64,000 nucleotides of DNA, from contig NZ_FTPR01000001.1 of the NCBI RefSeq assembly GCF_900156505.1, positions 744,001-808,000 of the forward strand. The letters run 5' to 3'. Each line of letters starts with the position of its first letter. Positions within the stretch are counted from its first letter, which is position 1. The DNA is from Yoonia rosea. Its GTDB lineage: Bacteria; Pseudomonadota; Alphaproteobacteria; Rhodobacterales; Rhodobacteraceae. Position numbers and translations under genes: made by a program. Of the stretch, positions 13,197-18,369 are shown piece after piece. The notes beneath the pieces are model-generated. The model did not search any database. It was given only the letters and a program-made list of their open reading frames with translations, and was not told the origin of the DNA.

Positions 13197-17516
<4,320 letters not shown>

Positions 17517-17524
17517 CCACAGTA

Positions 17525-17559
17525 GTCACAAAATGTTCTCAAATGTTCTATAAAAGTTC
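17525..17559 (+). promoter_or_regulatory. LexA (SOS) box overlapping a promoter
   Basis: GTTC-TATAAAA-GTTC at 17545-17559 is a perfect GTTC-N7-GTTC, the LexA box of alphaproteobacteria. The spacer contains the -10 hexamer TATAAA (17549-17554). A -35 candidate GTCACA (17525-17530) lies 18 bases upstream of it. LexA binding would cover the -10 directly. A third GTTC lies at 17535. The start of transcription would be near 17561, about 60 bases before the small gene. Confidence 0.72.
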
Positions 17560-17619
17560 TTTACAGGTGGTTAATGATATGAGAACAAAGTAGCAACAGA
17601 GCATGAGGAGAACACACCA

Positions 17620-17742
17620 ATGGCTGAAGAGATTAAATCCGTTATCGCACGTTCACGCGACACGATTGTCGCCGATGCGTTGGGCGTTGCCGCCCTCATG
17701 GTCATGTTGATTGTTGGATTGGCCTTGCCCGGGCTGATCTGA
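17620..17742 (+). CDS. 40-residue single-pass membrane protein, probable SOS gene
   Basis: A short gene encoding MAEEIKSVIARSRDT, a few polar residues, then one membrane segment (about residues 20-40, LGVAALMVMLIVGLALPGLI at the very C-terminus). GAGGAG lies nine bases before the ATG. It sits behind the perfect SOS box and is followed by an intrinsic terminator, so it looks like a complete one-gene unit. Small inner-membrane SOS proteins such as Caulobacter SidA stop division by binding divisome proteins. The size, topology and control here are similar, but no sequence relationship to SidA is claimed. Confidence 0.75.
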   Translation: MAEEIKSVIARSRDTIVADALGVAALMVMLIVGLALPGLI

Positions 17743-17888
17743 CCTGCCGAAGCGATCACGGCCCGGTCTGTCACATTGCCCTGTCCCAAGAATGCAATGC
17801 TTGATGACCTGCCTGTCTGATATCCAAAGCGGGGGTTTTGCCTCTCCCCATGGAATACTGGATCGGGTCGTGATCGTTTTCAAACCTG

Positions 17889-17924
17889 CCGCCGCCATCT
17901 GCCCGGATGTGCGGCGGTTTTTTT
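17889..17924 (+). terminator. Intrinsic terminator downstream of the small membrane protein
   Basis: CCGCCGC (17889-17895) pairs with GCGGCGG (17911-17917), followed by seven T residues (17918-17924). It faces rightward and ends at the stop of the leftward IscU-like gene. Confidence 0.85.
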
Positions 17925-18369
17925 ATGCGCTGGCCTGTTGGCTGTGCAGGGCGTCCAATGTGGCATCAAAGGCAAGCATGATCGACGCGTGGCGGTTCTT
18001 ATAGTCTTTGGCAGGCTGCAACACCTCAAGATCGCCAAAGGGGGCAGCGGGTACGGGGCCATCTGATTTGAGCATCGCATAAAGCGCATCACGGCCGGCT
18101 TGGACCTGATCGAGGGTCAGCCCGACGATATTTGCCCCAACAACAGCGGCCGCGGCCTGACCCAAAGCGCAGGCTTTCACATCCTGCCCGTAGCCCGTAA
18201 TCACACCATCGGCCAGTTCCAGATCAACGGTCACGGTCGAGCCGCACAAAGGGGCCCGCTTTTTCGCGGTCGCTGTGGGATGGTCCAGCCGTGCCGTGCG
18301 CGGCATATCCGCAGCCAGCGCCAGAATACGCCCCGAGTAGAGTTTGATCAGATCGTTTTCCGCCGACAT
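17923..18369 (-). CDS. IscU/SufU-like scaffold family protein
   Basis: A 148-residue protein starting MSAENDLIKLYSGRI. It shows the IscU-like fold, with Cys in APLCGS and Cys in VKACALGQAA. The third cluster-binding Cys expected after the Arg near the C-terminus is missing: the site reads NRHASIMLAF. Two of three ligands remain, so classical [2Fe-2S] scaffolding is doubtful, and a variant or accessory role is possible. It is divergent from hisI with 66 bases between starts. Longer in-frame starts up to 18498 would overlap hisI and are rejected. Confidence 0.75.
   Translation of the reverse strand: MSAENDLIKLYSGRILALAADMPRTARLDHPTATAKKRAPLCGSTVTVDLELADGVITGYGQDVKACALGQAAAAVVGANIVGLTLDQVQAGRDALYAMLKSDGPVPAAPFGDLEVLQPAKDYKNRHASIMLAFDATLDALHSQQASA

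Follow-up and report, generated by a model that had tools for sequence, protein, structure and literature searches.

A small, putatively LexA-controlled membrane-protein gene behind recG in the Rhodobacteraceae, a candidate SOS division inhibitor of roseobacters

The small gene behind recG

The DNA analysed here (the window) is a stretch of 64,000 nucleotides from Yoonia rosea, a member of the family Rhodobacteraceae; positions are counted from its first letter. Within it ligA and recG, both recognized by NCBIfam models, are followed by a short open reading frame preceded by a ribosome-binding site (Table 1). The first-pass annotation had placed a 40-codon gene just after ligA-recG and had given it a GAGGAG site, and gene, site and neighbourhood were all found as it had described them. 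The convergent neighbours are, by NCBIfam, the genes for a SufU-like protein (45.9 bits, below the model cut-off of 92.5) and for phosphoribosyl-AMP cyclohydrolase.

Table 1. Features of the recG-proximal locus in the window
Feature	Coordinates	Strand	Basis and remarks
recG, conserved upstream neighbour	15426..17516	+	NCBIfam RecG equivalogs
LexA operator array GTTC-N6-GTTC-N7-GTTC	17535..17559	+	Half-sites 17535-17538, 17545-17548 and 17556-17559; LexA binding putative
TTTACA, probable -35 element abutting the operator	17560..17565	+	Commonest base per position in 70-99% of 90 loci; role putative
Second, reversed half-perfect operator GAAC-N7-CAAC	17583..17597	+	GAACN7CAAC in 83/90 loci; over the expected -10/start region; LexA binding putative
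GAGGAG ribosome-binding site	17605..17610	+	9 nt before the ATG; sequence reading
40-codon gene, short N-terminal helix and one C-terminal transmembrane helix (predicted)	17620..17742	+	ATG at 17620, TGA at 17740-17742 (sequence reading); homologues, ATG conservation, synonymous excess, AlphaFold2
Intrinsic terminator	17888..17924	+	Hairpin 17888-17918, U-run to 17924; fold -22.6 kcal/mol, z -3.95

On comparative evidence, the 40-residue frame is a real protein-coding gene under purifying selection. The comparison draws on 90 loci from the better-scoring among 243 family genomes with a profile match (see below), several on short contigs having been skipped. All of the loci read start with ATG (90/90), and the product is exactly 40 residues long in 75/90. 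Variation is concentrated at third codon positions, the mean entropies at the first, second and third positions being 1.10, 0.69 and 1.57 bits, and single-base codon differences among these loci number 29,369 synonymous against 14,068 non-synonymous. The gene lies directly downstream of recG, on the same strand, in 88/90 loci, with a separation of 80-170 nt in 79 of these 88. Some public gene calls (P0002, P0056, P0060 and P0075) use an upstream start and run to 66-69 residues; that start falls inside the operator and promoter region, and the conserved start is that of the 40-residue frame.

The product is predicted to be a bitopic protein with one membrane helix. A single C-terminal membrane segment had been proposed for it, and the hydropathy profile agrees, with a Kyte-Doolittle mean of 2.51 over residues 16-34; a 19-residue hydropathy maximum of at least 1.6 is found in 89/90 peptides. 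AlphaFold2 models helices at residues 2-11 and 13-39 (mean pLDDT 94.2, pTM 0.54). Charged residues (D/E/K/R) are absent from residues 20-36 in all of the 40-residue peptides (75/75), and K and R are absent from residue 36 onwards in 90/90. Under the positive-inside rule, on which our topology prediction is based, this lack of K/R from residue 36 together with the N-terminal K/R places the N-terminus inside.

Conservation along residues 13-38 is periodic, with a best angle of 100 degrees (p=0.0008 in 20,000 permutations, which ignore relatedness), and it outlines a face composed of T15, D19, G22, L26, L30, G33 and P37, with L34 at the edge; the well-conserved residues L16, V28, L34 and L36 sit off the centre of this face. 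For other stretches the helical-moment test gave p values of 0.0013 (residues 15-38), 0.011 (18-38), 0.13 (2-12) and 0.0001 (2-38). The conserved stripe is compatible with what would be expected of a helix that packs on a fixed membrane partner, and it does not name that partner; it could also be a face for self-association.

Operator, promoter and terminator

The perfect GTTC-N7-GTTC box at 17545-17559, which the first-pass annotation had taken for the alphaproteobacterial LexA site, was confirmed by reading the sequence, and a third GTTC that had escaped that annotation lies six bases ahead of it. The motif is the published LexA motif of Caulobacter (PMC12700426). The window contains one such box where 1.61 are expected, and the genome as a whole has 89 perfect boxes, so that the box alone means little and it is its conservation that counts. 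It is present within 200 nt upstream of the small gene in 90/90 loci, compared with 0/1016 200-nt windows from the remainder of the same 90 loci and 52/18,000 base-shuffled upstream regions, and chance occurrence was rejected on these figures, which cover the better-scoring members. Named loci gave the box in 80/80, these being the best 80 of 203 found and a set that overlaps the 90.

The other promoters of the same genomes bear on the identity of the regulator. For 30 of these genomes a perfect box was found at lexA in 30/30 and at recA in 29/30, the one recA miss (L164) being a truncated locus in which the fixed offset is probably off the gene start; the box shared with lexA and recA marks that of the small gene as the LexA operator of the clade, as had been supposed. 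Control of the small membrane-protein gene by a LexA-type repressor is strongly supported by this comparative evidence. The triple of half-sites with N6 and N7 spacings recurs in 82/90 loci, and four or five half-sites are present in 29/90, the array thus ranging across the 90 loci from two to five GTTC half-sites that abut the conserved TTTACA.

The promoter elements proposed earlier fared less well. A TATAAA is indeed present in the box spacer here, but in relatives the spacer mostly reads TCAAAAA, TTAAAAA or TCATAAA, and no conserved -35 precedes the array in them; with neither its -10 nor its -35 conserved, that promoter was rejected. A simple scanner listed no sigma-70 promoter and no terminator at the locus. 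Across loci the box is immediately followed by TTTACA or by a related element, TTGAC for example, and further on comes the block ATGAGAACAAAG, positioned to put GAAC 17 nt beyond the TTTACA position. This spacing and a GTTC six bases ahead of the box occur together in 73/90 loci. We infer that TTTACA is the -35 element and that a non-canonical -10 lies somewhere in 17579-17589. A repressor occupying both the flank of the -35 and the start region would imply tight repression. A sequence model of the whole promoter matched the window's genome once at E<=1, at the site of the small gene (150 of 483 first-look candidates were scored). The intrinsic terminator that had been proposed is real, as judged by its folding energy (Table 1), but it stands 145 nt past the stop codon and was missed by the simple scanner.

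Several other promoters carry related elements. Most recA promoters in the family (L151-L180) have, by eye, a GTTC element about 28 nt before a GAAC-N7-GAAC box, a paired layout like that of the small gene. Elsewhere in the window's genome perfect boxes occur near an MmcB-like DNA repair gene and near a radical SAM gene (L297, G000:C1:1522549-1522563; L012, G000:C1:621820-621834); the former falls just inside the longest frame called and the latter is 12 nt upstream, and both genes are probably further SOS genes. Two perfect boxes 138 nt apart (L030, G000:C1:1460950 and 1461088) lie close to where a C-5 cytosine DNA methylase gene begins; this gene may be damage-inducible.

Distribution and divergence within the family

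A search with the single peptide sequence gave 84 homologues (E<=0.01), and a profile of 60 loci gave 726; all of the descriptive names, among the 84 and among the best 120 of the 726, are hypothetical or uncharacterized protein. Named records that carry the gene come from Ruegeria, Phaeobacter, Leisingera, Sulfitobacter and other roseobacters. The first profile matches 243/295 family genomes (E<=0.01), these genomes representing essentially one per genus, and it does so once per genome save for two genomes with two matches; a broader profile matches 261/295 (E<=0.1), a few weak matches included. The first-pass annotation had suggested looking for both the peptide and its upstream box in relatives, and both proved to be conserved, in the 261 genomes and the 90 loci respectively. 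Profile matches are present in 14/14 genomes of the genus and in 183/196 of the order, every one of them from the same family. A draw of 385 genomes from the class gave five family members, two spurious partial matches and nothing convincing outside the family; the two weak extra-family matches (G443 and G671) were dropped, as they cover only positions 3-20 and 1-27 and fall within longer open frames, of 290 and 495 codons.

Searches of Pfam, NCBIfam, PHROGs and solved structures gave no match to the peptide, and no profile in these libraries ties it to a known inhibitor. A phage collection gave no match to the small protein, nor was there a PHROG; a plasmid collection gave one, at 50% identity, on a 1.58-Mb replicon of Pseudorhodobacter turbinis, and a plasmid DNA search gave none. 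A mobile or phage origin is thus unsupported.

The family genomes that lack a profile match (34/295) are informative as to how the gene diverges. A recG locus was found in 14 of the 20 that were examined (one partial), and two of these end at a contig edge, which leaves 12 readable loci. A box together with a tiny one-helix frame is present in 8/12: in seven, a one-helix frame of 38-43 residues accompanies GTTCN7GTTC (with a possible earlier start in one case, which would give 50 residues), and one (L328) has, by eye, GAACN7GAAC and a frame of 29 or 36 residues. In 6/8 of these diverged frames the beginning of the helix retains an acidic residue followed three positions later by a glycine, like D19 and G22. 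The other 4/12 loci have neither box nor small frame, indicating that the function can be lost or moved. In other alphaproteobacterial families, 21 recG loci (one of which, L356, has only 261 nt readable) gave no small membrane frame and one box, 379 nt away; no true recG locus was obtained from a 22nd genome (G311). For these families frames were required to reach a hydropathy of 1.6, and for the profile-negative genomes 1.5, the frames counted in the latter scoring at least 1.81. The difference between 8/12 and 0/21 indicates that position, operator and architecture are held while the sequence drifts.

Among the other profile-negative genomes, four (G014, G029, G059 and G155) gave only Mfd-like or weak RecG matches, and two (G095 and G122) a partial N-terminal RecG match and otherwise only Mfd-like or weak ones. 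No recG was detected in G014, and yet this genome has a diverged frame of 39 residues preceded by an operator-like promoter (L190).

Proposed role and its alternatives

A LexA-type operator in front of a gene for a small, predicted one-helix membrane protein is the combination that characterizes SidA, YneA, SosA and ChiZ as a functional kind, and it is the combination found here. The best reading is that the small protein joins this known kind, that of the SOS-induced single-helix division inhibitors, with no homology to its named members being claimed. We infer from its architecture, its multi-operator control, its conserved helical face and the precedents, which together provide the best available guide, that it would be an SOS-induced inhibitor of division with the septal synthesis complex as its target, and we think this rather likely. 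The peptide has no Pfam match, SulA (PF03846) included, and SulA is not matched anywhere in the window's genome either.

In undamaged cells, LexA bound to the half-site array beside the -35 and to the reversed box over the start region would keep expression low, and RecA-stimulated cleavage of LexA would then give a burst of the small protein. Inserted with its N-terminus in the cytoplasm, this protein would pack, through its conserved face, onto a transmembrane helix in the complex for septal wall synthesis, that of FtsW or of the partners FtsI/FtsN; the complex would be held inactive, and cells would lengthen without dividing until LexA is restored. There are precedents. In Caulobacter, SidA (29 aa) acts on FtsW and DidA on FtsN (PMC4211646), and the filamentation of a delta-lexA strain requires sidA (PMC12700426). 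YneA binds FtsW via its helix, and SidA, SosA and ChiZ have been modelled on FtsW TM7, with low confidence according to the authors themselves (PMC13396833).

A close counterpart by description is SidA of Caulobacter crescentus, which is likewise an alphaproteobacterial, LexA-controlled, tiny inner-membrane protein, from an organism with the same LexA box (PMC4211646, PMC12700426). The small protein differs in having 40 residues rather than 29, a conserved face of its own, a location after recG and a different family of host, and the likeness is one of description and not a claim of homology. YneA of Bacillus subtilis, SosA of Staphylococcus aureus and ChiZ of Mycobacterium tuberculosis are also damage-induced, with a transmembrane helix that has been shown (YneA) or modelled (SosA and ChiZ) on FtsW (PMC13396833). 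These proteins have a LysM domain or an extended region, whereas the small protein has only a few residues beyond its helix. DidA, the FtsN-binding protein of Caulobacter, would be similar in being a small, damage-induced membrane inhibitor of division, and is longer than the 40-residue protein. It differs further from the small protein in being SOS-independent (PMC4211646).

The strongest competitor, which we regard as unlikely though deserving of attention, is that the protein is SOS-induced and regulates a different complex of the membrane from the divisome, for instance a membrane kinase, a protease or a transporter. The conserved helical face points to a partner without saying which, and a link from DNA damage through LexA to the CckA-CtrA relay is reported for R. 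capsulatus (cited in PMC6473078 and PMC9638019), but the SOS-induced single-helix proteins that PMC13396833 describes from other bacteria act on division.

Somewhat more doubtful is a membrane-depolarising peptide of the kind of TisB and DinQ in E. coli, which would lower membrane potential and ATP upon SOS induction and lead to dormancy and not to a specific block of division. The small protein resembles these peptides in its size, its single helix and its LexA-type control. TisB, however, has charges along its helix, whereas that of the small protein is uncharged at residues 20-36 in each of the 75 peptides of standard length, and the face that is conserved does not form a polar stripe within the membrane. 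The gene is moreover nearly family-wide at about one copy per genome, and the expected leader is probably too short to accommodate much antisense control. DinQ is a toxic, SOS-induced single-helix peptide that depolarises the membrane, and both TisB and DinQ belong to type I toxin-antitoxin systems with antisense RNAs (PMC3567139); here no antitoxin was seen and no Rfam family matched at 17400-18000, in a search that an undescribed RNA would escape.

A more speculative thought, to which we attach little probability, is that the docking partner of the SOS effector may be something other than FtsW (the CckA/DivL membrane kinase complex is one example), through which DNA damage would be tied to the CtrA relay and to gene-transfer-agent output in this family; such an effector would be marked by its fixed locus, its multi-operator LexA promoter and about seven face residues, the remainder of its sequence drifting beyond homology detection within the family. 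It is very improbable that, the gene being real, the GTTC array serves another regulator with the same motif: the promoter block is conserved well past a single LexA site and combines N6 with N7 spacings, but in the same genomes lexA and recA are themselves preceded by GTTC/GAAC N7 boxes, and GTTCN7GTTC is the LexA box published for Caulobacter (PMC12700426). The promoter is in parts better conserved than the peptide, as it might be if it drove a small RNA and the frame were untranslated, but this is scarcely credible given the invariant ATG (90/90), the constant length (40 residues in 75/90), the third-position variability and the synonymous excess.

A study of LexA in D. shibae predicted sites at lexA, recA, dprA, pde2 and flagellar, pilus and gene-transfer-agent genes, and the word recG is absent from its main text (PMC6473078). 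For roseobacters, a search of the open-licence PMC literature gave no named SOS division inhibitor and nothing on the small gene. The gene is a single, precise candidate for the SOS division inhibitor of roseobacters. Effectors of this sort are too short and too fast-drifting for family databases and can be found by locus and operator, which suggests that other clades may hold ones as yet unseen.
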